DNA of 16,415 nt, from assembly GCA_020201235.1 (NCBI GenBank), contig JAIVHD010000014.1:1-16415 (forward strand), read 5' to 3'. A model generated the notes under the pieces. That model had not been told where the DNA came from. It searched no databases and saw only the letters and a list, made by a program, of their open reading frames with translations. This stretch comes from Lysobacteraceae bacterium (GTDB taxonomy: Bacteria; Pseudomonadota; Gammaproteobacteria; Xanthomonadales; Wenzhouxiangellaceae). Made by a program: the position numbers and the translations under genes. Every line of letters begins with the position of its first letter. The stretch's first letter is position 1. Shown here one piece after another: positions 17 through 15,452 of this stretch.

Positions 17-525
17 TCACGGAAAAATCAAAAAAAGCCCATTTCCACCGCTTAAATGTCTTAGTTTGCCGTCAGAATCGTCACTGTAGGCTGAGGGCGT
101 CTCGCGCAGCGACCACTGTCAGTCTTGCCCATCGATCGCGCGGTGGCGAAGGTTGGCGGCGAAGCGCCGGAACGTTTCGAGGAATTCCGTGCTTCCGACC
201 GCGACCGACTGGCTCCACGCTGGAACTCGTTTCGGTGCAGTGTCACGTGGCGCTGCGTCGACCGATCCGGCAAGCGTTTGCTGAATCCGTTGCAGGCCAT
301 TGAGTCAGCCGGATATTTCCCATTGCGCCGGGTAAAACACGGCCCCGGCACGCACCATGTTCAAGTCGAAACGCTTTCTGGCCTGAAACAGCCAGCGACG
401 CCAGTCACGGCTGAATTACAGCAAAAACTCACGCCGATGGCAGCGCTGCGTGAGCTGCCAGATCTGGTCAGGGATGAAGTGACGATTGGCGCGCCTTTGG
501 TCGCAAACCGCCCCAGCCACGCCAC
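17..525 (-). pseudogene. REP-associated tyrosine transposase (RAYT, Y1_Tnp) remnant
   Basis: Reading the minus strand across frames gives pieces typical of RAYT transposases, which are single-strand HUH nucleases related to IS200/IS605. From about 525 downward: VAWLGRFATKGAP, then (other frame) FIPDQIWQLTQRCHRREFLL, a stop codon, FSRDWRRWLFQARKRF, and directly LNMVRAGAVFYPAQW, another stop, then WSQSVAVGSTEFLETF, and after a frameshift WSLRETPSAYSDD near the end. The block between ARKRF and LNMVRAG, which in the family carries the HUH motif and much of the catalytic core (roughly 70 residues, estimated from memory of the family), is absent at about 358-363. With at least two internal stops, a core deletion and frameshifts the gene cannot make an active enzyme. 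Family assignment rests on the RCHRREF, NMVRAG and SxAVGSxxF motifs, which I recognise with good but not absolute certainty. Confidence 0.72.
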
Positions 526-547
526 CTGGCGTGAATAAGGCGGGCTG
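517..547 (+). repeat. Terminal motif of the dispersed repeat family beside the RAYT remnant
   Basis: The segment ends GTGAATAAGGCGGGCT, nearly identical to the right end of the repeat at 14344-14365 (GTGAATAAGCCGGGCT) and to the reverse complement of the left end at 1260-1273. It lies immediately upstream of, and partly overlapping, the first codons of the transposase remnant. A looser copy in opposite orientation (CCTTAT then TTCACG) lies at about 7-20 near the other end of the remnant. The two could be the ends of the parent element. Confidence 0.5.
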
Positions 548-746
548 AACAGAATCCTGCGGCGCGGGGCGGCACCCTGGTTACACTCCAGCAACAGGCC
601 CGTGTTGAACTCGTAACCCCGGTTTTTGCAGGTGCTGGTTGGGGCTCGCTGCGGATCGTCGATTGATGCTGGAAGGTCGTGGCTGTGCTGCAGGGTGGTG
701 ACCGTTATCGAAAACCCAGCAGCCATTGTTGTGGAAACCTCTGAGA
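548..746. other. Gap with no recognised gene; possible truncated reading frame
   Basis: No recognisable gene. On the minus strand a frame opens with ATG at 726, diverging from the Zur-box-like site at 749-765, and runs for about 60 codons (MAAGFSITVTTLQHSHDL...) before entering the repeat end at 547. It could be the 5' stub of a gene interrupted by the RAYT element, but I do not recognise the protein and the frame may be chance. Confidence 0.3.
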
Positions 747-748
747 AA

Positions 749-765
749 ATGTTATATCATTACAT
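749..765. promoter_or_regulatory. Zur-box-like operator upstream of merC-family gene
   Basis: The 17 bases ATGTTATATCATTACAT form an imperfect palindrome. Against the core of the gammaproteobacterial Zur box (ATGTTATAWTATAACAT) the first eight bases and the last four match, with about two mismatches in total. It lies 21 bp before the merC-family start codon, where a repressor would block the promoter. Zinc-dependent repression by Zur is inferred from the match. Confidence 0.65.
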
Positions 766-786
766 CTTTGCATTAGCGGTGTCGCC

Positions 787-1203
787 ATGGACGTGGTATT
801 GAAAACAGAGCGCTCGCGCGAGTGTCCGGTCGGCTGGCTGGATCGGCTTGGCATTGGCATCTCAGGGTTCTGCCTGCTTCAGTGCCTGGCGCTTCCGCTA
901 ACGATGCTTTTTGCGCCGACGGTCAGCGTCGGCTTTTTCAATCACGAGATCTTTCACCTGGTGTTGCTGGCCGTGATCGTACCGGTCAGCCTGCTGGCGT
1001 TTGCGCTGGGGTTTTTTCGGCATCGCAATGCGCGGATGTGGATCCCGGCCGGCATCGGCTTCGCGCTGTTGGTCCTGGCAGCGATTCTTGAACAGCGCCA
1101 TGTTCTGGGGCAGGGCTGGATTGCGGCCGTAACTTCGGCCGGTGGTCTGGGCTTGATTATGGGTCACCTCCTGAATCTGCGTGGAAAAAGCGCGCCACGC
1201 TGA
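787..1203 (+). CDS. MerC-family small membrane protein
   Basis: This 138-residue protein fits the MerC family (mercury-uptake inner-membrane proteins and their chromosomal relatives). It has about four hydrophobic segments and the family's early cysteine motif in the first helix (GISGFCLLQCLALPLTMLF, Cys at about 33 and 37), followed by a Pro-containing helix. No mer genes lie nearby, so resistance to mercury is not implied. The Zur-box-like site 21 bp upstream points instead to induction under zinc starvation, and a role in metal transport or membrane metal handling is inferred. The start at 787 follows the operator closely, and no strong ribosome-binding site is visible. The gene appears monocistronic; a repeat element begins about 57 bp after the stop. 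Confidence 0.8.
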   Translation: MDVVLKTERSRECPVGWLDRLGIGISGFCLLQCLALPLTMLFAPTVSVGFFNHEIFHLVLLAVIVPVSLLAFALGFFRHRNARMWIPAGIGFALLVLAAILEQRHVLGQGWIAAVTSAGGLGLIMGHLLNLRGKSAPR

Positions 1204-1259
1204 ATTGTTGCCGGGCCCGTCCAGACGCACCGAACGTGGTCTTTCTGACATAATTGCTT

Positions 1260-1391
1260 AGCCCGGATTATTCACCACCCCACCTACTGCGGTGCCGGCA
1301 GGCCCCGCGTCGGTGTGCTCGGTCGCGAGACGCCCCGGCCACAGGGCCTATCGACTGCTCACGACGGTGGGGTGGTGATTCACAGCCGGGG
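1260..1391. repeat. Dispersed repeat copy A (MITE/BIME-like, about 130 bp)
   Basis: Terminal inverted repeats are visible: CCCGG, then CACCACCCCACC at 1273-1284, with its exact reverse complement GGTGGGGTGGTG at 1366-1377 followed by CCGGG at about 1386-1390. The interior has TACTGCGGTGCCGGCAGG and GTGCTCGGTCGCGAGACGCC, both recurring in other copies (11971-12174 and 14210-14365). There is no coding potential. It fills most of the gap between the merC-family and DUF962 genes. Confidence 0.8.
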
Positions 1392-1497
1392 TAATTGAGT
1401 TGCGACTCCGTGGCGCAAGCCTGGCGCGATGGCAAGTTCCTGGTTTGCTGCGCCATGATGGTGCGGCCATCCAGTATCCGAATCCCGGGAGGTTGAA

Positions 1498-1800
1498 ATG
1501 CAACCGTCGTTTTCGAGCTTTCGCGAATTTTATCCATACTATCTGGCCGAACATGCCGATTTACGATGCCGGCGTATGCATTTTGCCGGTAGCTGGCTGG
1601 TCATCGCGGCATTGCTGGCTGGCATTTTTGTATCGCCGTGGTGGTTTTTGGCCATGCCGCTGGCCGGCTACGGGTTCGCCTGGGTTGGCCATTTGGTTTT
1701 TGAAAAGAATCGGCCGGCGACCTTCAGCTATCCGGCCTACAGCCTGGCCGGCGACTGGGTCATGTTTTTCGACATTTTGCGCGGAAAAGTGCGCATCTGA
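1498..1800 (+). CDS. DUF962 / Mpo1-like membrane protein
   Basis: This 100-residue protein matches the DUF962/Mpo1-like family from end to end: FREFYPYYLAEHADLRCRR at the start, MHFAGSWLVIAALL, a helix pair, then GYGFAWVGHLVFEKNRPATF and YSLAGDWVMFF. Yeast Mpo1 is an Fe(II)-dependent dioxygenase in alpha-oxidation of 2-hydroxy fatty acids. The conserved polar residues that probably bind metal are present (His19, His28, His65 and the EKNRP segment at 69-73). The length is normal for the short bacterial members. A good ribosome-binding site, GGGAGG at 1487-1492, lies 5 bp before the ATG and fixes the start. The bacterial substrate is not known to me, so fatty-acid or membrane-lipid metabolism is inferred from the family. 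Confidence 0.85.
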   Translation: MQPSFSSFREFYPYYLAEHADLRCRRMHFAGSWLVIAALLAGIFVSPWWFLAMPLAGYGFAWVGHLVFEKNRPATFSYPAYSLAGDWVMFFDILRGKVRI

Positions 1801-1830
1801 TCTAAATCTGGCTAAGGAGTCCCGCTTTTG

Positions 1831-1851
1831 TTCGCCTGCAAGCAGGCTCCT
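1831..1851. repeat. Short palindromic repeat (REP-type)
   Basis: The core GCCTGCAAGCAGGC (1834-1847) has 6-bp arms, flanked by TTC and TCCT. This unit (AGGAGCCTGCTTGCAGGC on the other strand) resembles extragenic palindromes common in Pseudomonas and Xanthomonadales genomes. It lies 30 bp after the DUF962 stop and could form a hairpin in that transcript. The rest of the gap to 2011 holds the 18-bp repeat at 1866-1883, a small CGTAG/CTACG stem near 1989-2006, and nothing else recognised. Confidence 0.55.
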
Positions 1852-1865
1852 GAAAAGAGCCAATC

Positions 1866-1883
1866 CTTCTGATTGTATTCGTA
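1866..1883. repeat. 18-bp repeat, copy 1
   Basis: CTTCTGATTGTATTCGTA occurs here and again without mismatch at 6677-6694, where it abuts the right end of dispersed repeat copy B. The two sites are nearly 5 kb apart and non-coding, so this is probably part of another intergenic repeat. Confidence 0.6.
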
Positions 1884-2011
1884 ACCCCAACGGTGCATAA
1901 CGTCGAGCCGGAATCGCTACGCTGCCCGGTATAGCCGCCGTCGTACATCAGGTCGCGGGGCCTGTGTACTCGCGGTGCCAATCCTCACGTAGAGTGAAGC
2001 TACGCTGCGGT

Positions 2012-2931
2012 TTACAACTGCATGCCGTCGGAATACCCCAGTTCTATCAATTCACGACAGAATTCGGCTTCGAACAGCAGATAGCTCGGCAATCGTCCCG
2101 GGCCCCATGCGCCTACGCCCCTGAGCAGCGTTCTTACGCTTGCCGGCACCCGGTGCAGATGCCGGTTTGAAATTTCGCGCAGGTCTTTGCTGGGCTGAAT
2201 CAACAGTGCCTCGACCTGGCGTAGGTCGCTTTGGTCCCGACGGTCCGGGTGCAAGTGCCGCAGGGTTTCGTTGATGCGTTTCAGGCGGCCCAGGTCATTG
2301 GCCAGGTAATCCATGAAGATGACGTCGAGCAGGTAACCGCCAATTTCACCCAGCGACGGATATTTGCTGCACTCGCGGGGTTCGGGGTCAGGCAACTCGT
2401 CGCGTGTTCCGATGATCAGCATGCGATCGGCACCCATTCGGATCGGCGGGCTCAAGGGCGTGGTGTGACGCATGCCGCCGTCGCCGAAGTATTCGTTTCC
2501 GATTCGTCTTGCCGGGAACAGCAGCGGCAGCCCGGCACTGGCAAGGAGGTGCAGAGCGTCGATTTTGGCGCGCACACCAGCACGCTTGTGAAGCGACCAG
2601 GCCTCGATTTCTTCGCTAGCCTGAAAGAACGTGACCGCACGCGATGTGGCATAGCCCGAGGCGGTCACCAGCAGTGCCTTTAGGTGGCCTTCCTCGATCG
2701 CCCGATGAATGCCGGCACGGTCGAGTTCGCGCTGGAGGAGTTCGCCCAGCGGGCTGTTGTCGAGCAACGATTTCGGGTTGGCCAGGCCAAGTCCGCCGAG
2801 CGTCATCGAGCCCAGCCAGTGCAGGCCGGTGGGCCCGGCAGATACTCTGCCAGGGCCTTGAGAACGCCCACCTGGTAGGCACCTCTGGCACCACCGCCGG
2901 GCAGCATTAGAGCCGGGCGACTCACTCGCAC
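2012..2931 (-). pseudogene. Patatin-like phospholipase, internally deleted and frameshifted
   Basis: The N-terminal part, read from GTG at 2931 or 2925, carries the patatin oxyanion motif (LMLPGGGARGAYQVGVLKAL) and then meets a stop about 36 codons in. The remainder is in another frame: WLGSMTLGGLGLANPKSLLDN, then NEYFGDGGMRHTTPLSP with the catalytic Asp of the DGG motif, ending at 2012. Between the two parts, at about 2825-2842, the block that should contain the GXSXG nucleophile serine (GTSAG in relatives, roughly 60 residues) is missing. Family members are Ser/Asp dyad lipid acyl hydrolases of about 330-350 residues. Without the serine and with the frame broken this copy should be inactive. 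A minus-strand frame at 2922-3194 overlaps its start. Recognition of the family is confident; whether the lesion is real or an assembly artefact is open. Confidence 0.85.
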
Positions 2932-3194
2932 CCCTGAACGAGGAGTGGCCCGGGCCTGTCGGGTTGCAGCCTTGCATCCAGACCTTGGTTACCCGACGAC
3001 CAGCAAGGCTGGGGCGAGCGGGTGAGTAGCGCGTGGATGCAGCTTTTGGCATGGCCGGACAGGGCTTCAAACATGCCATACCCGGTATCGTGAACAAGCC
3101 TGGCAAGGGCCAGCCAACCTGACCTGAGCGGGCTTGCGATACGGACCCGGTCAATCGGGGGTCGAGGCGCTTGTTCGAGGCGAACCGGTGTCAT
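2922..3194 (-). CDS. Doubtful hypothetical protein upstream of the patatin gene
   Basis: An uninterrupted 90-codon frame begins at ATG 3194 and ends overlapping the patatin GTG start (GTGCGAGTGA), an arrangement typical of translational coupling. I recognise no domain. Codon third positions are less GC-biased than in neighbouring genes and no ribosome-binding site is visible. A 19-bp inverted repeat at 3210-3228 lies just upstream. It may be a chance frame in the patatin leader. Confidence 0.25.
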   Translation of the reverse strand: MTPVRLEQAPRPPIDRVRIASPLRSGWLALARLVHDTGYGMFEALSGHAKSCIHALLTRSPQPCWSSGNQGLDARLQPDRPGPLLVQGCE

Positions 3195-3209
3195 AGGCCG
3201 CTAATGTAC

Positions 3210-3228
3210 CATTCAGTCCAATTGAATG
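3210..3228. promoter_or_regulatory. 19-bp inverted repeat, possible operator
   Basis: CATTCA at 3210-3215 and TGAATG at 3223-3228 are perfect 6-bp arms separated by 7 bp, in a locally AT-richer stretch. It lies upstream of the minus-strand frame at 3194 and the patatin gene, and downstream of the SPOR gene stop. The size and symmetry fit a TetR-type operator. No regulator is encoded nearby, so the function is a guess. Confidence 0.35.
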
Positions 3229-3308
3229 TTGGGTCTTTCGCGTCTGTTTTGGTTCGCAGCTTCGACGGTACGGCAGGCGGCAGGCGTGAGGTCATTGCCA
3301 CGAGGTTC

Positions 3309-3863
3309 TCAACCGTCGCGCAAGACCATTGCTTCGAAGCCGTTATCGAGCAGCTGGCGTCGAGCGCTGTCGGCCGTGCGGGCGGTTTCAAACGGTCCCA
3401 GGCGTACCCGGTGCCAGCGCTGGTCGTTGACCGTGACTTGCTGGATGTTGGCCACGAGACCCAGCAAGGCAAGCCTGGCCTTCAGGCTTTCGGCGTCGTC
3501 ACCTGAGCGAAACGAGCCGATCTGGATAACATACCGACCGCCTGCGGCGGTGGCCGGCTGGTCGGGATTGTTGCGAGCCCGCTGCTCGATTTCACTATTG
3601 GGTACGATGACTTCGATTTCGGGCAAGACCGTGAAGAACTCGTATTGGTTGTTGCCGGCGCGATCGTCGGTGCCGGGCGACTCGATAATCGGCGGCTCGT
3701 CGCGGCCGCTGGGCGGCCCCTGTAAGGCTTCGTCGCCGCGCGGCAGGTAGCCTCCCATCCATGCGAGCAGGGCGACGCCAAGTCCGCACAGCAGGCCGGC
3801 TGAGAAGGTCAGGAAACCCAGCGAGCCGTTCGAACGGCCTCGACGTGCCTGCTTACGCGCCAT
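3309..3863 (-). CDS. SPOR-domain membrane protein (FtsN-like)
   Basis: This 184-residue protein has a short basic cytoplasmic N-terminus (MARKQARRGR), one transmembrane helix at about residues 15-40, a periplasmic linker with the segment YEFFTVLPEIEVIVP (74-88), and a C-terminal SPOR domain at about 108-184 (YVIQIGSFRSGDDAESLKARL ... WHRVRLGPFETARTADSARRQL). SPOR domains bind septal peptidoglycan stripped of stem peptides, so it probably acts at the division site, like FtsN. Its ATG overlaps the argS stop by one base (TAATG), implying translational coupling; argS followed by a SPOR protein is a common gammaproteobacterial pair. The hslVU genes that often follow are not here. It is much shorter than E. 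coli FtsN, so I do not use that name. Confidence 0.88.
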   Translation of the reverse strand: MARKQARRGRSNGSLGFLTFSAGLLCGLGVALLAWMGGYLPRGDEALQGPPSGRDEPPIIESPGTDDRAGNNQYEFFTVLPEIEVIVPNSEIEQRARNNPDQPATAAGGRYVIQIGSFRSGDDAESLKARLALLGLVANIQQVTVNDQRWHRVRLGPFETARTADSARRQLLDNGFEAMVLRDG

Positions 3864-5623
3864 TACATCTGCTCCGGTGCATTGACTCCGAGGATGCCGA
3901 GACCGGCGGCCAGCACGCTGCGCACCGCCACGATCAGATTGAGCCGGGCGTTTCGCAGGTCGTCGTTTTCGACCAGGATTGGCGTGGCGTTGTAATAGGT
4001 GTGGAAAAGGCCGGCCAGTTCATGCACGTAATGGGCGATGTCGTGTGGAGACCGGCGCCGGGCCGAAGACTCGATGATTTCCGGCCAGCGACCCATGGCC
4101 TGCATCAGCTTGCGCTCTTGCTTTTCCGCCAAGTGCTTCAGGGCCGCATCGCCGATTGCGGAGTTGTGCTTCATGCCGCGTCCTTCAAGTTGCCTGAAAA
4201 TGCTGAAAATTCGTGCGTGAGCGTACTGGACGTAGAAAACCGGATTTTCGTTGGCGTGCGATGTGGCCAGGTCGAGGTCGAAGTCAAGGTGTTGTTCGTG
4301 CGAGCGCATAATGTAGAAGTAACGCGCGGCATCGTTGCCGACCTCTTCGCGCAAGCGCCTGAGCGTCGTGAATTGGCCCGATCGGGTTGACATTGAGATC
4401 TGCTTGCCTTCGCGGTACAGGATGGCAAACTGAACGAGTTGGAACTCCAGACGATCAGGATCCTCGCCAAGCCCGCGGGCTGCGGCTTTAAGGCGCGGGA
4501 CGTAGCCATGGTGATCTGCGCCGAAGATGTAGATCAGCGTGCCGGGACAGCGCTCGAGCTTGTCGAGCAAATAGGCGATGTCGGAAGCGAAGTAGGTCGT
4601 GCGGCCATTTTCGCGCACGACTACGCGGTCTTTGTCGTCGCCCAGCTCCGATGACCGAAACCAGCGCGCGCCGTTTTCGGTATACAGCCAGCCTCCGGCT
4701 TCCAGGCGCTCAATGGCACGCTCCAGTGCGCCGTTGAGGTCCAGTTCGCGCTCGGAGAACCAGCGGTCGAAGACCGCGCCAAATTCTTCGAGATCTTCGC
4801 GAATGTCTGCCAGCATGGCTTCTAGCGCTGCCTGGAAGCACGCCTCGTAACCGGATTCGCCGAGCATTCGGCGCGCCGTGGCGATTAACGCGTCGATATA
4901 GATTTCCTTGTCGCCGCCGTCCTTTTCGTCGGCCGGCAGGTCGGCACCGATAGTGCGCGCCGGATGTCGCAGGTCATCGCCATGCCGGTTACGCACGCTG
5001 CGCGCGATGTCGTAGATGTATTCGCCACGATAGCCATTGTCCGGAAAGGGTACGGCTTCACCGCACAGTTCCAGGTAACGCAGCCAGACAGACACGGCAA
5101 GGATGTCCATTTGCCGACCATGATCGTTGACATAGTATTCCCGATGGACCCGATGGCCGGCGGCCTTCAGGATGGCCGAGAGCGATGCGCCGTACGCCGC
5201 GCCTCGACCATGGCCAACATGCAGTGGTCCGGTCGGGTTGGCGCTGACGTATTCGGCCAGAATGTCGGGCTGGCTTCCAGGGGGCAGGTGGCCAAACCTG
5301 GCGTCGCTCGCCAGTACTTCACGTACGACCGAGCGCAGATGATGTTCACTGGCAACAAAATTGAGAAAGCCAGGACCGGCGACGGTGACCTCGGCTACCC
5401 GCTTCGAGGCCGGCAGTTTACTGACAATCAGTTCGGCGATAGCGCGCGGCTTCATTTTGGCCGGACGGGCCAGGAGCAAGGCGATATTGCAGGCATAATC
5501 GCCGTGCTCCGGGTCACGCGGCCGGTCGATCTGAACTTCCGAATCGAGCTCGCGTGGCAACTGCCCGTCGCGCTTCAGATAGCCAAGGGCCTGGTTGATC
5601 AATTCTTCGATGTGCGCGCGCAT
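3863..5623 (-). CDS. argS: Arginine--tRNA ligase (ArgRS)
   Basis: This 586-residue cytoplasmic class I synthetase charges tRNA-Arg with arginine. Visible parts, in order: an N-terminal Add1 domain (1 to about 95, with the DPEHGDYACNIAL segment), ANPTGPLHVGHGRGAAYG with the HIGH-type motif HVGH at 135-138, the catalytic Rossmann domain with YIFGADHHGYVPRLKAA, KQISMSTRSGQF in the KMSKS position (about 410), and a C-terminal DALR anticodon-binding domain beginning near VQYAHARI. The length matches the family (E. coli 577) and nothing is missing, unlike several neighbours. The Lys-less form of the KMSKS motif is usual in ArgRS. Translation starts at ATG 5623 without a clear ribosome-binding site. 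A possible minus-strand -10 (TACAAT, 5662-5667) precedes it, and a DnaA-box pair lies a further 30 bp upstream. Confidence 0.97.
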   Translation of the reverse strand: MRAHIEELINQALGYLKRDGQLPRELDSEVQIDRPRDPEHGDYACNIALLLARPAKMKPRAIAELIVSKLPASKRVAEVTVAGPGFLNFVASEHHLRSVVREVLASDARFGHLPPGSQPDILAEYVSANPTGPLHVGHGRGAAYGASLSAILKAAGHRVHREYYVNDHGRQMDILAVSVWLRYLELCGEAVPFPDNGYRGEYIYDIARSVRNRHGDDLRHPARTIGADLPADEKDGGDKEIYIDALIATARRMLGESGYEACFQAALEAMLADIREDLEEFGAVFDRWFSERELDLNGALERAIERLEAGGWLYTENGARWFRSSELGDDKDRVVVRENGRTTYFASDIAYLLDKLERCPGTLIYIFGADHHGYVPRLKAAARGLGEDPDRLEFQLVQFAILYREGKQISMSTRSGQFTTLRRLREEVGNDAARYFYIMRSHEQHLDFDLDLATSHANENPVFYVQYAHARIFSIFRQLEGRGMKHNSAIGDAALKHLAEKQERKLMQAMGRWPEIIESSARRRSPHDIAHYVHELAGLFHTYYNATPILVENDDLRNARLNLIVAVRSVLAAGLGILGVNAPEQM

Positions 5624-5697
5624 GATGAGTGGGGCAGAATGACCGGTGTGAGCAAACCGGTATTGTAGCCGGGCTCGTCTGGATCGGCTGGACGGCG

Positions 5698-5732
5698 TTA
5701 TCCACAGAGACTGTGGATAACGTTGTGGGTAA
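5698..5732. promoter_or_regulatory. DnaA-box cluster in the argS / carbonic anhydrase gap
   Basis: TTATCCACA at 5698-5706 and TGTGGATAA at 5712-5720 are two perfect DnaA-box consensus sequences, inverted and 5 bp apart. TGTGGGTAA at 5724-5732 differs by one base, and TGTGCATAA at 5900-5908 also by one base. The cluster lies beside an AT-rich stretch. It may be a DnaA-controlled promoter, a DnaA-titration site or part of a replication origin; the sequence does not decide which. Confidence 0.7.
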
Positions 5733-5775
5733 TATCCACTCGCATGGCTGAAGCCCCCTTGATGGCGATAACTCT

Positions 5776-5880
5776 GAGGATTGGTTAAAAATGAATCACC
5801 TCATTTAAATTATTTATAAACAAATACTTACGCGTGTTTATGAATGTTCAATCTTCGCTACGCCCGACAAATTGCTGTTT
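5776..5880. other. AT-rich stretch beside DnaA boxes
   Basis: This interval is strikingly AT-rich for the window; the run 5805-5827 is TCATTTAAATTATTTATAAA-type sequence and is almost entirely A/T. It lies 50-150 bp from the DnaA-box pair and upstream of the carbonic-anhydrase promoter. It could be a duplex-unwinding element or simply an UP-type promoter region. No gene is seen in it. Confidence 0.5.
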
Positions 5881-5881
5881 T

Positions 5882-5909
5882 TTGAACTTGATATGACACT
5901 GTGCATAAT
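5882..5909 (+). promoter_or_regulatory. Sigma70-type promoter for the gamma-carbonic-anhydrase gene
   Basis: TTGAAC (5882-5887) and CATAAT (5904-5909) are 16 bp apart. Transcription would begin near 5916, giving a leader of about 32 bases to the ATG at 5948. A DnaA-box-like TGTGCATAA overlaps the -10. Confidence 0.55.
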
Positions 5910-5947
5910 GACAATTTATGGTCCTGCTTGAGATCAAGGAAAATGTG

Positions 5948-6499
5948 ATGACGTTAACAATACGTAAATTCGGAAACGTTCGACCTGTCATCGGTGAACG
6001 GGTCTGGCTGGATCCGGCATCGACGCTGATCGGGGATGTGCACCTGGGGGCGGATTGCTCGATCTGGCCCGGCGTGGTCCTGCGTGGCGATGTCAACCGG
6101 ATTCGGGTCGGGCAGCGCACCAACATTCAGGATGGCTGCATCGCTCACGTCACTCACGATGGACCGCTTTCACCCGGCGGTTTGCCGCTGATCATCGGCG
6201 ACGATGTAACGGTGGGTCATGCGGCCGTTTTGCACGCCTGTACCATCGGCAATCGATGCCTAATCGGCATGAGCGCGCTGCTGCTCGATGGCGTGGTTGT
6301 CGAAGACCAGGTCATGGTCGCGGCTGGTAGCTTGGTCAGTCCCGGAAAGCGGCTGGAATCGGGCTGGTTGTATCGCGGCAGCCCGGCACGGCCGGCACGG
6401 CGGTTGGACGAGGGCGAAATCGAGATGCTGCGCTATTCCGCCGAACATTACGTGCGCCTTAAGGACCGGTATCTGCAGGACCACCGGCAGGACGAATGA
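5948..6499 (+). CDS. Gamma-carbonic-anhydrase-family protein (YrdA-like)
   Basis: This 183-residue left-handed beta-helix (hexapeptide-repeat) protein closely resembles E. coli YrdA and relatives: SIWPGVVLRGDVNRIRVG, TNIQDGCIAHVTHDG, IGDDVTVGHAAVLHACTIGN, IGMSALLLDGVVVEDQVMVA, and the C-terminal ESGWLYRGSPARPARRL. The histidines that bind zinc at subunit interfaces in this family are present (His67/His70, His91, His96). It probably forms a cytoplasmic trimer; carbonic anhydrase activity is known for some family members and not shown for many YrdA-type ones. I set the start at ATG 5948, because AAGGA at 5936-5940 is well placed and the promoter puts transcription start near 5916; the in-frame ATG at 5918 would leave almost no leader. 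The gene is monocistronic and is followed by repeat copy B. Confidence 0.9.
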   Translation: MTLTIRKFGNVRPVIGERVWLDPASTLIGDVHLGADCSIWPGVVLRGDVNRIRVGQRTNIQDGCIAHVTHDGPLSPGGLPLIIGDDVTVGHAAVLHACTIGNRCLIGMSALLLDGVVVEDQVMVAAGSLVSPGKRLESGWLYRGSPARPARRLDEGEIEMLRYSAEHYVRLKDRYLQDHRQDE

Positions 6500-6505
6500 A
6501 CTGAC

Positions 6506-6676
6506 CCCGGTTTATTCACCACCCCACCTCCTGCGGCACCGACAGGTCCGGAGGTCGGGGTGTTTCGCGACCGGGTGCACCGGAAACTTACTCGGCTGTT
6601 CGGTGGGGACTCGCTTGGCTGCAACACGCCGCAGATGTCGAGCCTGACGGCGTTGCAGTGGGGCGGATGTTGAATA
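6506..6676. repeat. Dispersed repeat copy B
   Basis: It begins CCCGGTTTATTCACC, with CACCACCCCACC at 6517-6528 exactly as in copy A, followed by the diverged interior CTCCTGCGGCACCGACAGG. The other end is degenerate (GTGGGGCGGATGTTGAATA, about 6658-6676). It lies 7 bp after the carbonic-anhydrase stop, between convergent genes. Confidence 0.7.
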
Positions 6677-6694
6677 CTTCTGATTGTATTCGTA
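6677..6694. repeat. 18-bp repeat, copy 2
   Basis: Identical to 1866-1883. Here it directly follows dispersed repeat copy B and ends 16 bp before the stop codon of the amidase gene. Confidence 0.6.
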
Positions 6695-6709
6695 CGGCGT
6701 TAGAGTAGA

Positions 6710-8053: not shown

Positions 8054-8204
8054 CGACGACTACTATGCAACGGATTGACTCCGATTGCAAGAGCGAATTT
8101 GTTTCGATATTAGATAGATACGGTTGATTTATGAATCAAAGCCTGATCATCGGCCGCTGACCCCGGCAGGGCGTGGACGGTGAGGGCTCCTAGCTGACAA
8201 TACA

Positions 8205-8888
8205 CTAGACCCGGAGAATGCGGAGCCAGCGCCAGAAGTTGACCATACCCATCATCGAGGCGGCGACGTAGGTGAAGGCCGCAGCCGTGAGGATCTTGCG
8301 GGCCGCGCCGCGATCCTCGTTTCTTAGATAGCCGCCTTTTTTCAGGATCGGTAACGCCCGGCGGAAGCTCGCGTCGAGTTCTGTTGGGAGCGTGACCAGG
8401 TGGATGGCAATGCCGGAGGCTAGTGCGGCCATGCCCACGACCAGGAAAATCAGCCCGGCGCGGGGCAGTTTAAGAGCTAAAAGGGCGACTGGCATCAGGC
8501 CGATCAGAATCACGCCGAGACGTTGCCATTTCTGGACCGACTTGACCAGCCGGCCGCGCCAGATCAGCGGACTATAACCGTCGGCGTGCTGCAGCGCATG
8601 GCCGACCTCGTGGGCGGCCACCGTGATGGCTGTCAGCGAAGCATCGGAGTAATTCGACGGACTCAGGCGCACGGCGCGATCGTCCGGGTCGTAGTGGTCG
8701 CCGTCTTCGGTCTGTTCGACCTTGATGGATTCGAGCCCGGCCTTGTCCAGCAGATGGCGCGCGGTTTGAGCGCCGGAACTGGGATAGCGGTCGGTCGGCG
8801 CGGCGTAGCGGCTCATGACGCGCTGAACCCACCAGCCCGGCAGCAAAACGATCCCAACCAGGAAAACCAGCCCGATCAGCAAGTGCAT
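8205..8888 (-). CDS. Membrane zinc metallopeptidase, YugP family
   Basis: This 227-residue protein has an N-terminal transmembrane helix (LLIGLVFLVGIVLLPGWW), the zinc motif HEVGH at 93-97 with upstream SDASLTAITVAA, two further membrane helices around 124-138 and 142-165, LPTELDASFRRA (Glu170, probable third zinc ligand), and a C-terminal helix at about 199-220. This is the order seen in YugP-like peptidases (Zn_peptidase_2), whose substrates are largely unknown. GGAAG lies about 8 bp before the ATG at 8888. It starts 37 bp after the rsmI stop on the same strand, so the two are probably co-transcribed. The length is complete. The 150-bp gap to the amidase start holds no recognised gene. Confidence 0.88.
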   Translation of the reverse strand: MHLLIGLVFLVGIVLLPGWWVQRVMSRYAAPTDRYPSSGAQTARHLLDKAGLESIKVEQTEDGDHYDPDDRAVRLSPSNYSDASLTAITVAAHEVGHALQHADGYSPLIWRGRLVKSVQKWQRLGVILIGLMPVALLALKLPRAGLIFLVVGMAALASGIAIHLVTLPTELDASFRRALPILKKGGYLRNEDRGAARKILTAAAFTYVAASMMGMVNFWRWLRILRV

Positions 8889-8925
8889 TGCGTGGCTTCC
8901 CGTCGTTTTTCGGAGGCGGATTGAC

Positions 8926-9783
8926 TCATGAATTTTTCCGGTTCAGGGCTTCGACCAGAGCGAATGCTTCGCGTCGATCGAGCTCGCTGACGCGTGATAA
9001 TACTCTGGCTGCGCGCGCTGGGGGAAGTTCCGCCGCCAGTTCGCGCGCAAGCGCATCAATCAGAATGGGTTTCGGCTCTGCTCCGGGCGCTCCGCTGATC
9101 AGCAAAACGGCCTCGCCGCGCTGCTGGTCCGGGTCGCCGGCGGTCCAGTCGGCCAGCTCGCCGAGGCTTGCGCGGCGAATGGTTTCGAATTGCTTGGTTA
9201 GCTCGCGCGCGACGGTCGCTAGCCGGTCAGTGCCGATTGCTGCGGCTGCATCGGCCAGCGCTTTCGGCAGCTTGCGCGCCGGCACGTAAAAAACCAGCGT
9301 CGCGGCCTGCTGCTTCAAGCTTTCCAACCGACGGCGTCGTGCGCTGGTCCGGGCGGGAAGAAATCCTTCGAAGAAAAAGCGATCGGTGGCAAGCCCGGCG
9401 GCCGACAGTGCCGCGATGGCCGCGCAGGGACCGGGGACCGGCGATACCCGGATTCCGACCTCGTGTGCGGCGGCGATCAAGCGATAACCAGGGTCGGAAA
9501 TCAGCGGCGTACCCGCGTCACACAGCAGCGCGACGTCGTGGCCCTGCCCAAGCAGCCCGATCAGTCGCTTGACCACCGATTCCTCGTTGTGTTCATGCAG
9601 GCTGACCCAACGCGGCGGCGTCTGGCGTATTGCGACGAGCTTCTGACTGGTGCGTGTATCTTCGGCCGCCAAAATCGGCGCTTCGGCCAGTACTTCGCGA
9701 GCTCTGGGGCTGAGGTCGGCAAGGTTGCCGATCGGAGTCGCGACGACCCACAGGGTACCCTTGATGCTGATTTTGAGGGACAA
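8926..9783 (-). CDS. rsmI: 16S rRNA (cytidine1402-2'-O)-methyltransferase
   Basis: This 285-residue SAM-dependent tetrapyrrole-methylase-fold enzyme modifies C1402 in the decoding centre of 16S rRNA. Motifs in order: LWVVATPIGNLADLSPRA, ILAAEDTRTSQKLV, SLHEHNEES, VALLCDAGTPLISDPGYRLI, VSPVPGPCAAIAALSAAG, FFFEGFLPA, VFYVPARKL, and a C-terminal basic helix. The length is normal. The start appears to be TTG at 9783, since an in-frame TGA lies seven codons upstream, no ATG lies between, and GGAAA is 5 bp before the TTG. It is divergent from lpoA-yraN, the standard gammaproteobacterial arrangement, which supports both calls. Confidence 0.96.
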   Translation of the reverse strand: MSLKISIKGTLWVVATPIGNLADLSPRAREVLAEAPILAAEDTRTSQKLVAIRQTPPRWVSLHEHNEESVVKRLIGLLGQGHDVALLCDAGTPLISDPGYRLIAAAHEVGIRVSPVPGPCAAIAALSAAGLATDRFFFEGFLPARTSARRRRLESLKQQAATLVFYVPARKLPKALADAAAAIGTDRLATVARELTKQFETIRRASLGELADWTAGDPDQQRGEAVLLISGAPGAEPKPILIDALARELAAELPPARAARVLSRVSELDRREAFALVEALNRKNS

Positions 9784-9856
9784 TGCGATTTCCGCGAAGC
9801 GTCAGAATCGTATTATGGCACTCATGAGGCGCAACACCCTTGCTGCTTGCACGTTT

Positions 9857-11597
9857 ATGGCCAAAGTCTGCTTGCTGCGAAAAGCACGGGTATCGGCGGG
9901 CCTGATGTTGCTGGTTCTGTTACTCGCGTCTTGCGCGTCGACGGCCCCGCAAATCGACCAGGACGCTGACAACGATCCAAATCGGCTGGCCGAACGCGGG
10001 CTGCACGAAGAGGCGGCACTGGCCTGGGCGTCGCTCGCCTGGGAGCGGCCGGACGAGGCCGCGCAGGCGCGCCGGTCCGCGGCCCGACAGTGGCTGCTTG
10101 CCGGCCGCCCGGACGAGGCGCAGCGAATGCTGGATCAATTGGAGCGCTCGAATCCCGGCAGCGCCGAATGGTACGAAGTCGAACTGCTCGCGGCCGAAAT
10201 CGCACTGGCCAGTAACGAATTTGATCGCGCCGAGCAAATTCTTTCGACCGTGCGGGGGGCGCTCCCCGAGGCGCTGCGCGAACGATACGATCTTTTGCGC
10301 CAACGGCTTGACCAGGCCAGCCCCGATTCGGCCGCGGTGCGTGTCGAGGGTCTCCGGCAATCCCTGATTGACGGCGACTTTAAACCCGAGACGGCGCTGG
10401 CTCTGCTGCTCGACCTGCCGCTGGAGACCTTGCGCGATCAACGTCGGCAGTCTGCAGACCAGGATTTGTTATTGCCGTGGCTTGACCTGGCAGCGACCGC
10501 ACGTGCCCATCTGCTCGACGATCCGGCTCTGAGTCGGGCGTTGGGTGAATGGCGGCAGCGTTTTTCGCTCGAGCGTCCGCTGGTGAGCGATTTGCTCGAC
10601 TGGATCTGGTCCTGGCGGGAGCTGCAGCCGATGCCGTCTCGGGTGACGATTTTGCTACCCGGCCAGGGGCCGCTTGTGGCGGCAGGCGACGCGTTGCGCG
10701 ACGGTATGCTGGCCTTCTGGTTCGAACTGCCCCGGCAACTGAGACCCGAGCTCGATTTCCAATGCGCCGGATGCCGGAATCCCGATGTTGCTGCTCAATC
10801 GTCCTGCCGATGAAATCCAGCTGTCGCCGGCAACCTCAATCGCGATGCTCGCGCTGCCGCCCGAGGAAGAGGCCGAGCTGGCTGCGGTACGGGCGTTGGT
10901 GACGGGCCACGAGCGTGCACTGCTGATCGCCCAGAACAGCGATTTCGGTCGGCGCGTCGCGCAGCGGTTCAGCGAGACCTTTGAGCTCGGCGGAGGCCGG
11001 GTGTATGACCGGATCGAGCACTCTTCCGTTCAGTTCGATCACACCGACCCATTGCGCAAATTGCTGGAAATCGATCGTTCAGAGCAGCGCATCGCGCAGC
11101 TCGCACAGGTTCTTGGCGGCGAGATTGAATCCGAGCCACAGCGGCGCACCGACGCTGATCTCATCTTTCTGGCCACGCGCGGCGGCGATGCCCGTCAATT
11201 GATGCCGCAATTGCGTTTTCTGGATCTCGACGACCTGGATACCTACGCCACCTCGCATGTTTACTCCGGCGAGGATTCCGGGACCGATCTGGACGGATTG
11301 CAGATCCCGGTTTCGCCGTGGGTGCTGGATTCAACCGCCGCGTCTGAACGCCGCCGCGGGGCCGAGCGGCAGTTCGAGTCACTCGGCTCGTCGTCGACCC
11401 TGAGCCTAATTCACGCGCTTGGGCGCGATGCGATGGCATTGTTGCAGTGGTTGGACCTGATGCACCAGGACCGTCTGCTCTACCTGCCCGGAAACGTCGG
11501 TCGCCTGCGCCTGGCCGACGGTGTGGTGCTGGAGCGCGACCTGCCATGGGCTCAGATTCGAAACGGACGTCCGGTGCCGATCGCCGATCAGCCGTGA
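9857..11597 (+). pseudogene. lpoA: LpoA (penicillin-binding-protein activator) with internal deletion and frameshift
   Basis: LpoA is an outer-membrane lipoprotein that activates PBP1A. The first part, from ATG 9857 (also possible 9815 or 9824), has a lipoprotein signal with lipobox LASC (Cys26), a helical TPR-like N-domain (about 30-270), and the start of the periplasmic-binding-like C-domain (VTILLPGQGPLVAAGDALRDGM). At about 10755-10765 the frame shifts: this frame runs into stop near 10811, while another frame continues ISNAPDAGIPMLLLNRPAD ... LDLMHQDRLLYLPGNVGRL to 11597. Relatives have about 45-55 more residues at the junction (the YDTG to VVGPL region), so a block appears deleted out of frame. 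A possible -10 (TATTAT, 9811-9816) favours the 9857 start. Position between rsmI and yraN confirms identity. Expression as one protein is not possible as written. Confidence 0.85.
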
Positions 11598-11613
11598 GGC
11601 CGGCGAATTCGTA

Positions 11614-11967
11614 ATGTTCAAGCGTTTGACTGGTCAGCGGGGCGAGCGACAGGCCGAAGCTTTCCTGAAACGAAACGGCTTGAAGCTGGTTGCCCGGAAC
11701 TGGCAATGCCGCCACGGTGAAATTGACTTGGTCATGCACGACCGCGAGTTCCTTGTTTTTGTCGAGGTTCGCTTGCGCACGCCGCGCGGATTCGCCAACA
11801 GCGCAGAAAGCGTTGATGTGTTCAAGCAGCGAAAACTCGTTCAGGCGGCATCGTATTTTCTGGCGACCTCGCCGCTGTGGCAGTCGTGGCCGTGCCGCTT
11901 TGATGTCGTCGGCATCGAAGGCGACACCGGTGAACTGGCCTGGATCGATCACGCCTTTGAGGCCTGA
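11614..11967 (+). CDS. yraN: YraN-family (UPF0102) endonuclease-like protein
   Basis: This 117-residue protein has the UPF0102 fold related to Holliday-junction resolvases: GQRGERQAEAFLKRNGLKLVARNWQCRHGEIDLVMHDREFLVFVEVRLR contains the catalytic-type residues E, D and ExR of the PD-(D/E)XK core. The C-terminal part (KQRKLVQAASYFLA, FDVVGIEG) is intact. The function of YraN is not established; a nuclease role is inferred. The ATG at 11614 lies 16 bp after the lpoA stop, matching the conserved lpoA-yraN operon. The diaA and BON-domain genes that usually follow are replaced here by repeat copy C and then recA. Confidence 0.92.
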   Translation: MFKRLTGQRGERQAEAFLKRNGLKLVARNWQCRHGEIDLVMHDREFLVFVEVRLRTPRGFANSAESVDVFKQRKLVQAASYFLATSPLWQSWPCRFDVVGIEGDTGELAWIDHAFEA

Positions 11968-11970
11968 ACC

Positions 11971-12174
11971 CGCCTGATTCCGCCTGATCCACTACCCCAT
12001 CTACTGCGGTGCCGCCAGGCCCCGCGTCTAGGGCGTTTGGCTCGGTCGAACATCCTTACCCCGACGTGATCGAACCGCCATGCGAGTACGCTTGCGGTGC
12101 GTTCGCTTGCGAAACGCCGCAGCCACGGCACTTGGCGGCACCTCGTAACGGAGGGGCTGTGAATACGTCGGGCT
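11971..12174. repeat. Dispersed repeat copy C
   Basis: The left part CTACTGCGGTGCCGCCAGGC repeats copy A with one mismatch, and TGAATACGTCGGGCTGA (12160-12176) is the usual right end. Inside, GGTGCCGCCA (12008-12017) pairs perfectly with TGGCGGCACC (12133-12142), so the element could fold into a long hairpin. The stretch 12082-12120 (GCGAGTACGCT ... GAAACGCCG) recurs in copy D. Confidence 0.75.
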
Positions 12175-12363
12175 GAAGCGGCGGATTTCGGGCGGTCAAA
12201 GCGTACTGATGATCCGTGCCTCGATCAATGGTCCTGTGTCGGGGCCGGTTTGGCGGCATCATAGGCACATGAGTCCCGGCGACCGCGAGATCATTCGGCG
12301 GGAGACCGTGGCGCATGCGCTGGATGGGTTGCTGGGGCGAATGTGACGAATGAACATGCTTAT
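12175..12363. other. Unassigned stretch upstream of recA; possible 25-codon ORF
   Basis: No recognised gene. A small plus-strand frame, ATG 12269 to TGA 12346, encodes MSPGDREIIRRETVAHALDG plus five residues, and its frame is open for some codons upstream of the ATG. It looks protein-like and could be a gene tail left by a rearrangement, but the family is unknown to me and chance is possible. Confidence 0.25.
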
Positions 12364-12398
12364 GTAGGTAAATCGGACGAATTCGGGTAGGTAAATCG
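12364..12398. promoter_or_regulatory. Tandem 12-bp direct repeats upstream of recA
   Basis: GTAGGTAAATCG occurs at 12364-12375 and again at 12387-12398, 23 bp start to start (about two helical turns), 43 bp before a possible recA -10 (GATAAT, 12441-12446). No E. coli-type LexA box (CTGT-N8-ACAG) is seen in the recA leader. The spacing suits a regulator binding the same face of DNA twice; a role in SOS control is only a hypothesis. Confidence 0.4.
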
Positions 12399-12488
12399 CC
12401 CTTCGAGCTCCCGACGGCCTGGCGTTTGTCGGTCGTGTGAGATAATCCTCCATCATCCAATCAGCCTATCGACGGAGACTATTCAACA

Positions 12489-13532
12489 GTGGACGACAAT
12501 CGAAAAAGAGCACTATCGGCGGCATTGAGCCAAATCGAAAAGCAATACGGCAAGGGTGCCATCATGCGCATGGGCGATGATGCGCGCTCGCGTGACGTTC
12601 CAGTTGTTTCCAGCGGATCGCTCGCGCTGGACGTCGCACTCGGCATCGGCGGGCTACCGCGCGGTCGCGTAGTCGAGATCTACGGTCCGGAATCGTCGGG
12701 CAAGACGACCCTGACACTGCACGCAGTCGCCGAGGCGCAAAAGCTCGGTGGCACGGCAGCGTTTGTCGATGCCGAGCACGCGCTCGACCCGAGCTACGCT
12801 GAGAATCTCGGCGTCAACGTCAATGATCTGCTGGTTTCCCAACCCGATACCGGCGAGCAGGCGTTGGAGATTACCGACATGCTGGTGCGTTCCGGGGCGG
12901 TCGATATCGTGGTCGTCGATTCAGTTGCAGCGTTGACCCCCAAGGCCGAAATCGAGGGCGAAATGGGTGATTCACATGTCGGGTTGCAGGCTCGCCTGAT
13001 GAGCCAGGCGTTGCGCAAACTGACCGGTAATATCAAGCGGACCAATTGCATGGTGATCTTCATCAACCAGATCCGCATGAAGATCGGCGTCATGTTCGGC
13101 TCTCCCGAGACCACCACAGGTGGCAACGCACTGAAGTTCTATTCGTCCATTCGTCTGGATATCCGCAGAATTGGCGCACTCAAGCGCGGCGATGAGGTGA
13201 TCGGCAACGAGACCCGGGTCAAAGTCGTCAAGAACAAGATGGCACCGCCGTTCCGTCAGGCAGTCTTTGAAATTCTTTATGGAGAAGGCATTTCACGCGA
13301 GGGCGAACTGATTGAACTGGGGGTTGAGCATAAAATCATCAAGAAATCCGGTGCCTGGTACAGTTACGGTGAAGATCGCATTGGGCAAGGCAAGGATAAC
13401 GTGCGAACCTTCCTCAAAGAGCATCCTGAAATGACCTCTGAAATCGAAAAAAGGCTTCGCGATATTTTGTTGCCCAAGCCCGAAGACAGCACTGAGGCAC
13501 CGGTAAAAGAAGCCGAGGACGTCGCGAGCTGA
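12489..13532 (+). CDS. recA: Recombinase RecA
   Basis: RecA is the ATP-dependent strand-exchange protein of homologous recombination and the co-protease that triggers LexA self-cleavage. The 347-residue sequence is complete: [20 protein letters not shown] at the N-terminus, Walker A GPESSGKT at 66-73, the VDAEHALDP segment, Walker [21 protein letters not shown]-binding loop L1 ([10 protein letters not shown]), loop L2 ([27 protein letters not shown]), and the acidic C-terminal tail ([16 protein letters not shown]). The start is GTG at 12489 with GGAG at 12474-12477 upstream; it aligns with the usual MDDN start of the family. It is followed by a terminator-like hairpin and then recX, the classic recA-recX order. 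Confidence 0.99.
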
Positions 13533-13570
13533 TCGATGGCTGGTGTTGGCATGATTCGTAGCAGGTCCGT

Positions 13571-13608
13571 GGCCCGGTGCCCTCGGGCATCATCGGGCCT
13601 GGTTTTTT
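13571..13608 (+). terminator. Terminator/attenuator between recA and recX
   Basis: GGCCCG (13571-13576) pairs with CGGGCC (13594-13599), with a smaller stem inside the loop, and is followed by TTTTTT at 13603-13608. A partial terminator in this position is common and keeps recX expression below that of recA. Confidence 0.65.
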
Positions 13609-13687
13609 GCCTTGTCGCAGGCCGATGGCCGCTCGGCGGAGCGTCGAAGACGCGCGATCGGGTCTTTGGGGCAGGCCAGGCCAGGGC

Positions 13688-14209
13688 ATGAGCGGTTGGG
13701 ACAACGAATGGCCCGAAGCACCTTACAGCGAGTCGGTCGCGGGCGCTGACGCCGATCAAGAACATCAGCGCGAGCACGATCGGCAGGGCCTGCGGGATGG
13801 CGCATTGCGCTTGCTGGCAAGACGCGAACACTCGTGCCTGGAGCTGAGCCGCAAACTACTTGCAAAAGGCTGGCCGCAATCGCGGGTCGACGAGGTGCTT
13901 GACGAACTGGCGGCGGCCGGCCTGCAATCGGATCAGCGCTTCGCCGAAAGCTTCGTCCGCCAGCGTGCCGGGCGATACTATGGCCCGCGCAGAATTCGGG
14001 CCGAACTGGAGCAGCGCGGGGTCGATTCCTGGCAGGCCGTAGCCGCGATCGAAAATCCCGAAATCGATTTCTTTGAAATCGCCGCCAAATATTATCAACG
14101 AAAATACCGAAACGCTGACAGCGCGCTGTCCTACGCCGAGCGCGCTCGGCGCTCTCAGGCCCTTTACCGGCGTGGATTCGAGTCGGACCACTTGCGCGAT
14201 TTGTTTTAG
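13688..14209 (+). CDS. recX: Regulatory protein RecX
   Basis: RecX binds RecA filaments and limits their activity. This 173-residue protein has an acidic N-terminal extension (about 1-36) and three tandem three-helix repeats: GALRLLARREHSCLELSRKLLAKGW, VLDELAAAGLQSDQRFAESFVRQRAGRYYGPRRIRAELEQRGV, and FFEIAAKYYQRKYRNADSALSYAERARRSQALYRRGFESDHLRDLF. I choose ATG 13688; the longer frame opening at GTG 13577 would start inside the terminator hairpin, and ATG 13625 has no better ribosome-binding site. Its length and position 155 bp after recA agree with the family. Repeat copy D begins at the stop codon. Confidence 0.93.
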   Translation: MSGWDNEWPEAPYSESVAGADADQEHQREHDRQGLRDGALRLLARREHSCLELSRKLLAKGWPQSRVDEVLDELAAAGLQSDQRFAESFVRQRAGRYYGPRRIRAELEQRGVDSWQAVAAIENPEIDFFEIAAKYYQRKYRNADSALSYAERARRSQALYRRGFESDHLRDLF

Positions 14210-14365
14210 GCGCATTCACCATCCCTGTGTCGCGAGACGCGGTCAGCGGTTGTAGCTGCGGCGTTTCGCCCGGTCGCGCATCTTCACCGCACCGGCGAGT
14301 ACGCTGCCGGCGTGCTCGGTTGCGAAAACGCCGTCGGCATGGCCCACCAGTGAATAAGCCGGGCT
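14210..14365. repeat. Dispersed repeat copy D
   Basis: It starts GCGCATTCACCATCCC directly after the recX stop and ends CCACCAGTGAATAAGCCGGGCT (14344-14365 region), matching the ends of the other copies. The interior 14295-14333 (GCGAGTACGCT ... GTGCTCGGTTGCGAAAACGCC) matches both copy C and copy A. Confidence 0.75.
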
Positions 14366-14459
14366 AACCCGACAGGCTCCGAGTCAGTGATTTACCGACA
14401 CAGCGTAGGAAAAATGCTGATGATGGTTTTCCGGCTTGCCTACCCTTTTGCGGGATAAA

Positions 14460-14590
14460 TTACCGACTCGCGACAGAAACCTGATCGCTAGACTGGACGT
14501 ATTGGTTGGTGGAGTGACTCGGGAATGCCAGTTCCCGGGTCGTCGGCGGCACACGGGTTTCTCTCTCGACTCGTGTGTCGCTCTTTTTTT
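14460..14590 (+). ncRNA. Candidate small RNA or 3' leader ending in a strong terminator
   Basis: No convincing protein is encoded between 14366 and 14698. The 3' half contains two consecutive stable hairpins: 14516-14525 paired with 14532-14541 (GACTCGGGAA / TTCCCGGGTC, loop TGCCAG), and the terminator at 14546-14590. The 5' end is uncertain; TTGCCT (14436) and GATAAA (14454) are near-promoter sequences but with poor spacing. It could instead be the long 3' tail of the recX transcript. No known RNA family is recognised. Confidence 0.35.
14546..14590 (+). terminator. Strong Rho-independent terminator
   Basis: GCGGCACACG (14546-14555) pairs along its length with CGTGTGTCGC (14572-14581), one pair being G-U, across a 16-base loop, followed by TCTTTTTTT to 14590. 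It ends whatever transcript comes from the recX side, insulating the tRNA gene. Confidence 0.8.
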
Positions 14591-14698
14591 ACGCGGTCGT
14601 TACATACCGCGGTATTCAGCGTAGAACTTCGCTAAACTACGCGCTGCGTTGCGGGATCGTCTCGCGCGGTCAAGTGCGCCGTGAAACTGAAAGCCTTC

Positions 14699-14790
14699 GG
14701 AGAGGTGGCAGAGTGGTCGAATGCGGCGGTCTCGAAAACCGTTAGGGGCTTTACGGCCCCTCGGGGGTTCGAATCCCCCCCTCTCCGCCA
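14699..14790 (+). tRNA. tRNA-Ser (anticodon CGA)
   Basis: The 92-base gene folds as a class II tRNA: acceptor GGAGAGG (14699-14705) pairs with CCTCTCC (14780-14786), discriminator G, encoded CCA (14788-14790). The anticodon loop CTCGAAA at 14731-14737 gives anticodon CGA (14733-14735), reading UCG. A long variable arm (TAGGGGCTTTACGGCCCCTC region) is the serine hallmark, and the T arm is GGGGG-TTCGAAT-CCCCC. It stands 10 bp before the alr start codon. Confidence 0.97.
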
Positions 14791-14800
14791 CCGATTGAAT

Positions 14801-15452
14801 ATGTCCCGCAACACCTTCGCAACCATCGATACCCCGGCATTGTCGCGCAACCTCGAACGGGTGCGCACCATCGTCGGTGGTGCGCGGATTATGGCCGTGA
14901 TCAAGGCCGATGCCTACGGCCATGGCCTGGGGCAATGCGTGCCGGCGCTCGCCAAGGCCGACCTGCTGGCGGTCGCTACGCTTGACGAGGCCAGCGCCGT
15001 TCGCGCGATCGACGCGCGTGCTGCGATCCTGTTGCTTGAGGGCATTACAAGCCGAGGCGAACTCGACGAGGTTCGGCGGCTTGACCTGGAATTGGTCTTT
15101 CACCATTCCGCGCAGCTCGACTGGGGCCGGAGAGACCATCGGCTACGGTGCGCGGTTTCGCGCCGCCCGCGACATGCACATCGGCGTCGCCGCAATCGGC
15201 TACGGAGACGGTTATCCGCGTAACATGCCCGATGGCACGCCGGTGCTGGTCAACGGTCGCGTGCAAGCTCTGGCCGGGCGGGTGTCGATGGACATGATTA
15301 CGATCGACCTCGAAGGCCAGTCCGATGCGCGAGTCGGAGATCCGGTGGTGTTGTGGGGCCGTGGTTTGCCGGTCGAGTCGATTGCAAACGCTGCCGGGAC
15401 CATTCCTTATGAATTACTGTGCCGGGTCACGCGCCGGGTTCACTATCGCTGA
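14801..15452 (+). pseudogene. alr: Alanine racemase with internal deletion and frameshift
   Basis: Alr is the PLP enzyme making D-alanine for peptidoglycan. The N-terminal part from ATG 14801 is normal: the PLP lysine Lys35 in [15 protein letters not shown] and barrel strands as far as [11 protein letters not shown] (about residue 107). At about 15120-15128 the frame changes and the sequence resumes with [19 protein letters not shown], then [11 protein letters not shown] (holding the catalytic tyrosine of the second subunit) and GRVSMDM, ending RRVHYR at 15452. About 140 residues (roughly 430 bp) of the barrel and hinge are absent compared with the usual length of about 360. Both catalytic residues survive, yet the fold and frame do not. 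No ribosome-binding site separates the tRNA from the ATG. Unless another alr/dadX exists, a broken copy is implausible, so an assembly error must be considered. Confidence 0.85.

Follow-up and report, generated by a model that had tools for sequence, protein, structure and literature searches.

The window, a stretch of 16,415 nt analysed here at its full length, raises the question of why genes that lie close together on one contig keep both of their ends and seem to lack their middles. A sequence-only reading had proposed that four genes (a RAYT transposase, a patatin-like phospholipase, lpoA and alr) share the same lesion, with a false join during assembly as the simplest cause and a mutational process that generates internal deletions as the other candidate. 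The window is the entire contig 274 of a draft genome in 439 contigs and 2.89 Mb, which is 83% complete and 0.5% contaminated, and for which the database labels on the nearest proteins and relatives read Wenzhouxiangella or Wenzhouxiangellaceae. Profile and tRNA searches identify merC, an Mpo1-like gene, the patatin gene, a SPOR protein, argS, a hexapeptide protein, an amidase, a zinc peptidase, rsmI, lpoA, recX, a tRNA-Ser and alr. From their translations, we take recA, a yraN-like gene and part of an AAA-type regulator to be present in the window as well. Eleven of the 14 gene places that we compared in the window have no break.

We used full-length proteins of relatives as tblastn queries against the window, and read the matching pieces and their frames off the alignments. 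Patatin, lpoA and alr each match as a collinear pair of pieces that lie in different frames and are separated by 11 nt or less, their ends meeting or slightly overlapping, which bears out the earlier claim that the frame changes at the junction in these three genes. For patatin, on the minus strand, the N-terminal piece is at 2836..2919 (frame -3; matched by the patatins of six relatives with 63-96% identity over 25-52 aa), and the C-terminal piece at 2012..2830 (frame -2; profile and tblastn). All six queries are split at the junction, 2830-2836, where about 169 nt are lost; the gene is matched in 14 of 18 relatives, in 12 of them strongly. For lpoA (LppC), on the plus strand, the N-terminal piece is at 9812..10762, both ends being approximate (frame 2; Pfam LppC positions 19-244), and the C-terminal piece at 10767..11597 (frame 3; LppC 320-563), each by Pfam and tblastn. 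With all seven queries the two pieces meet or overlap within approximately 10752-10810, depending on the relative, and the loss is 113-116 nt. A match for lpoA is found in 17 of 18 relatives, the one in relative G006 having an internal stop. For alr, also on the plus strand, the N-terminal piece is at 14801..15124 (frame 2, 108 aa, Ala_racemase_N) and the C-terminal piece at 15126..15452 (frame 3, 108 aa and a stop, Ala_racemase_C). The junction at 15124/15126 splits six of the seven relatives' queries, the seventh (L070) having been cut in the wrong frame and being uninformative; against relatives, the loss is 404-416 nt. Pfam recovers positions 1-102 of 220 of the N domain and 15-124 of 127 of the C domain, in different frames.

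The lost blocks had been put at 45-140 residues, which is right only roughly: lpoA lacks about 38, patatin about 56 and alr 147. None of the losses in the three genes (169, 113, 116 and 416 nt, and 440 nt by the closest comparison for alr) is divisible by three, which is partly an effect of detection, since in-frame losses are hard to detect by the method used. The pieces of all three genes align to those of relatives without stops, and the window is absent from our list of alignments that bear stops. The extra decay that would mark a genuine pseudogene, stops in the remaining parts, is thus absent from patatin, lpoA and alr; a very recent deletion would look alike.

The claim of one lesion in four genes stands for patatin, lpoA and alr, each with a flush and frame-changing loss, and falls for RAYT. 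The decayed RAYT (IS200-like transposase) remnant, at 119..580 on the minus strand, stays in one frame, with stops at 418-416 and 307-305 inside it and a third at 121-119 near its likely end, close to where the protein of a relative ends. That protein (L300; 266 aa) is Y1_Tnp by Pfam, and the RAYT pieces align to it in order, the later two with E-values of 5e-8 and 1e-6 in a single comparison. By inspection, about 72 residues are missing in frame relative to L300, and beyond the second stop the remnant is again short in frame. Pfam assigns no family at E 0.1 to the RAYT pieces alone; comparison of the pieces with plasmids gives no useful match, and with the other Y1_Tnp place in the same genome nothing convincing. 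In matching such a protein in pieces, the remnant is like pseudogenes of RAYT/IS200-like (Y1) transposases, and in its stops and in-frame losses relative to an intact relative it has the marks of a genuine pseudogene and is unlike patatin, lpoA and alr. Judging from the sequence, it is probably a separate and real pseudogene, the product of ordinary transposase decay, not to be grouped with the other three.

The most direct evidence about the missing middles comes from alr, a gene normally required for peptidoglycan. An alanine racemase has both domains whole and in one frame, and the window alr, with 147 aa missing, does not. A search with both alr halves placed end to end finds an NCBI protein of 363 aa, here P0001, labelled “MAG: alanine racemase [Wenzhouxiangellaceae bacterium]” and encoded on a contig of 25,338 bp. 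P0001 is identical to the window alr at 108/108 residues on the left (P0001 residues 1-108) and at 108/108 on the right (residues 256-363), and has 147 extra residues between; the next protein by score has 86% identity over the reported stretch. A whole gene with ends identical to those of the window alr exists in another assembly. Relative to P0001 the loss is 440 nt (the 147 aa, minus the single nt that separates the halves), which is the best figure for it. The junction in the window reads TGG-G-GCC; in P0001 the left part continues with I, whose codon starts with A, and the right part is preceded by A, whose codon is GCN, so that by inspection no base is shared with the window. Searching the window genome (83% complete) with full-length P0001 returns only the two halves, and the alr middle was not found on another contig. 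A wider scan of contigs with P0001 finds relatives at no more than 67% identity among the 80 matches listed.

P0001 also bears on the reading that the families normally lack these blocks and simply vary in length. Linker-like regions, for instance in MutL, do vary in length. Against such variation, the blocks are present in the aligned relatives, and each of the three junctions in the window shifts the frame. For alr it is refuted, as P0001 carries the block and in all 18 relatives searched the matching frame stays open for at least 312 aa, where the window has 183 aa; for the set of genes we find it barely credible.

An intact version with identical flanks in another assembly is found for alr only. 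No near-identical intact lpoA or patatin appears among the best 120 matches listed for each, the best besides the window's own protein having 54% identity for lpoA and 79% for patatin, and a scan of the genome contigs with part of lpoA gave no confirmed match. The lack of such matches for lpoA and patatin is mildly against false joins, or else the other MAG does not contain these regions. The sequence-only reading had suggested a look for second copies of alr and lpoA, and none that could rescue the cell was seen: the genome, 83% complete, holds a single C-terminal part of each, and alr occupies a single place in it. The alternative is that the deletions are real, that the lineage has recently suffered internal deletions in many genes, and that P0001 is the intact allele of a sister strain. 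P0001 comes from another assembly and could belong to a sister strain rather than to the same cells, which counts against false joins, as does the lack of near-identical intact lpoA and patatin among those best 120 matches. Real deletions would need to be many, independent, recent and flush, and to include the only alr seen, and the pieces on both sides of the junctions stay open and alignable. We consider this alternative improbable.

To see how often such losses recur, we compared the window and 35 other contigs or stretches of its genome (36 in total, 375.5 kb, drawn from the 439 contigs; many were picked for showing up in a prior repeat search) with codon-scored predicted genes on 1.6 Mb of the same-genus genome G003 (approximately 3.2 Mb in total) and on 0.3 Mb of G005. 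As a control we used 20 stretches of G005, a same-genus draft that likewise has N runs; G005 was compared with G003 only, and the window genome with both. The window genome provides 86 comparable gene places covering 92 kb. A flush frame-changing loss of at least 20 nt occurs in 8/86 of them, or 5/72 with the window excluded, against 0/91 in the control, one doubtful case having been dropped on each side (Fisher two-sided, p = 0.0026, or 0.016 when the window is left out). The figures without the window are the fair ones, because the window was chosen for its lesions. Restoring the dropped case on each side gives 9/86 and 6/72 against 1/91, with p = 0.008 and 0.045. The contrast with the control outside the window is modest (p = 0.016, or 0.045 with dropped cases), and because it weakens to 0.045 we hold the artefact with slightly lower confidence, and real deletions with slightly higher, than we otherwise would. 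The lesion is found elsewhere in the same assembly and, with that one doubtful case dropped, not in a comparable control, which again speaks against real deletions.

The five losses outside the window are in an agmatine-deiminase-like gene (L203, 131 nt), in pmbA and tldD on the same contig (L211:4347-6925, 68 and 193 nt), in an SDR gene (L212, 20 nt) and in mutL (L213:3797-5306, 278 nt). Scanning the separate pieces with profiles confirms the gaps in TldD, PmbA and MutL. Six of the eight losses are visible against G003: patatin, lpoA, L203, L211 twice and L213. Four candidates were dropped. The 16-nt loss in L091 rests on an alignment to a reference frame whose two pieces contain 11 and 5 stops, so that the reference is probably no gene; the 142-nt loss in L099 is unclear, its pieces overlapping by 165 nt, and it also fell outside our filter; the 201-nt loss in L209 is in frame and at 45% identity; and the 26-nt loss in control L161 belongs to the reference, because in the window genome L203 shows a frame change against that reference protein at identical residues. 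The size limit for losses was 16 nt, and below it or in frame the control shows three changes of frame (14, 4 and -5 nt) and one in-frame loss (357 nt). The N-marked cases in L084 and L212 (4090-4303) were left out of the loss count in the window genome, where L203 also has one in-frame shortage of 40 aa. Extra rather than missing DNA accompanies a frame change relative to G003 in L084:4350-5421 (approximately 476 nt), L091:11949-12204 (approximately 125 nt) and L097:11305-11604 (approximately 217 nt), and L206 has 1308 nt of in-frame extra DNA; none of these was counted. The three extra-DNA frame changes are not accounted for by false joins.

Because the losses are flush, frame-changing and recurrent on other contigs, and because alr exists intact with identical ends elsewhere, patatin, lpoA and alr very probably lack their middles through false joins in a draft assembly of the metagenome type, not through mutation, and the three genes are most likely whole in the cell. 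The earlier preference for a false join as the simplest cause is supported by this recurrence and by the identical ends of the intact P0001, while nothing that we found favours a mutational process making internal deletions.

The gaps that the assembly does mark suggest how such joins could arise. The sampled stretches contain eight runs of N, 20-225 nt long, and in addition a contig (L093) that is N throughout. Homologues allow four of the eight to be measured. All four understate the length of the sequence that they replace, in three cases by 186-392 nt: 103 N stand for approximately 495 nt in a PBP1b gene, 214 N for approximately 432 nt in a dipeptidyl-peptidase-like gene, and 149 N for approximately 335-452 nt in a gene with distant homologues only (24-49% identity). 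The underestimate is not uniform, as the 25 N in L097 are nearly right, standing for approximately 43 nt if they account for all of the difference in length. These four gaps are like scaffold gaps of misestimated length in being too short, and the window junctions are unlike them in having no N left. That the marked gaps of the same assembly are themselves too short is a further point against real deletions. In the mechanism that we propose, sequence ends would flank short unassembled gaps, which in the cases seen span approximately 20-440 nt. A scaffolder or gap closer may order the ends, take the distance between them as approximately zero and join them without Ns, whereas larger gaps would receive too few Ns. 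Given the bias of the N runs, true gaps of up to approximately 400 nt could be judged to have zero length and be closed flush. The flush losses observed, of 20-440 nt, agree with such closing, though this step is one that we infer.

A different assembly fault, either two strains locally collapsed into one or an overlap falsely chosen by a gap filler, would look much like a join at zero distance, as it equally yields flush losses that are random in frame. By inspection, the junctions of patatin and lpoA permit an overlap of a few bases. Against it, no base is shared at the alr junction, and a repeat scan across the whole window, junctions included (at least 20 nt, seed 12), finds no repeat at the patatin, lpoA or alr junctions, which also excludes long repeats as the cause of the junctions. 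We regard such a fault as possible, at a minority share, and count it within our confidence that the junctions come from assembly. Extremes of GC were considered as a cause of gaps and set aside, as in relatives the missing parts do not differ consistently in GC from the remainder of the gene.

Apart from the junctions, the window has three copies of a dispersed repeat of approximately 50-120 nt, at 1263-1311, 6507-6555 and 11980-12028. A 130-nt query of this repeat has 52 matches in the window genome, and among 11 relatives it has 26 in G006, 8 in G002 and 1 in G005, the other eight having none. The first copy is predicted to form a long hairpin whose ends are inverted (z = -2.4, equalled by 3 of 200 shuffles), and the folding of the other two does not stand out. 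By these features the repeat appears REPIN-like. The copies at approximately 6500 and 12000 sit where collinearity with the gene order of G003 ends, and these breaks in order may reflect either recombination at the repeats or more joins to distrust.

There is precedent for genes seemingly broken by assembly. As described by Cooley and Wright (2024, PMC11017572), assembly errors are behind many apparent pseudogenes, and near-identical genomes differ in spurious ones. The errors treated there are small indels and miscalls, and by its own account that study does not assess MAGs; the window genome has losses of 20-440 nt at joins.

Beyond the correction of an assembly there is little new biology here. 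Were the deletions true, they would amount to a striking mutational process: a lineage that had recently acquired many blunt internal deletions, perhaps hundreds, alr included, with near-identical sister cells intact, and a deletion-making process caught in the act, a picture that we think very unlikely. In the part of this draft compared outside the window, about one gene in 14 (5/72) looks broken and probably is not. The completeness score of the draft may be affected by false joins, and claims of gene loss, essentiality or pseudogenes made from it are not to be trusted without reads. For the biology of the organism, if mismatch repair seems to be lost in this draft, as its split mutL would suggest, the loss is probably spurious.
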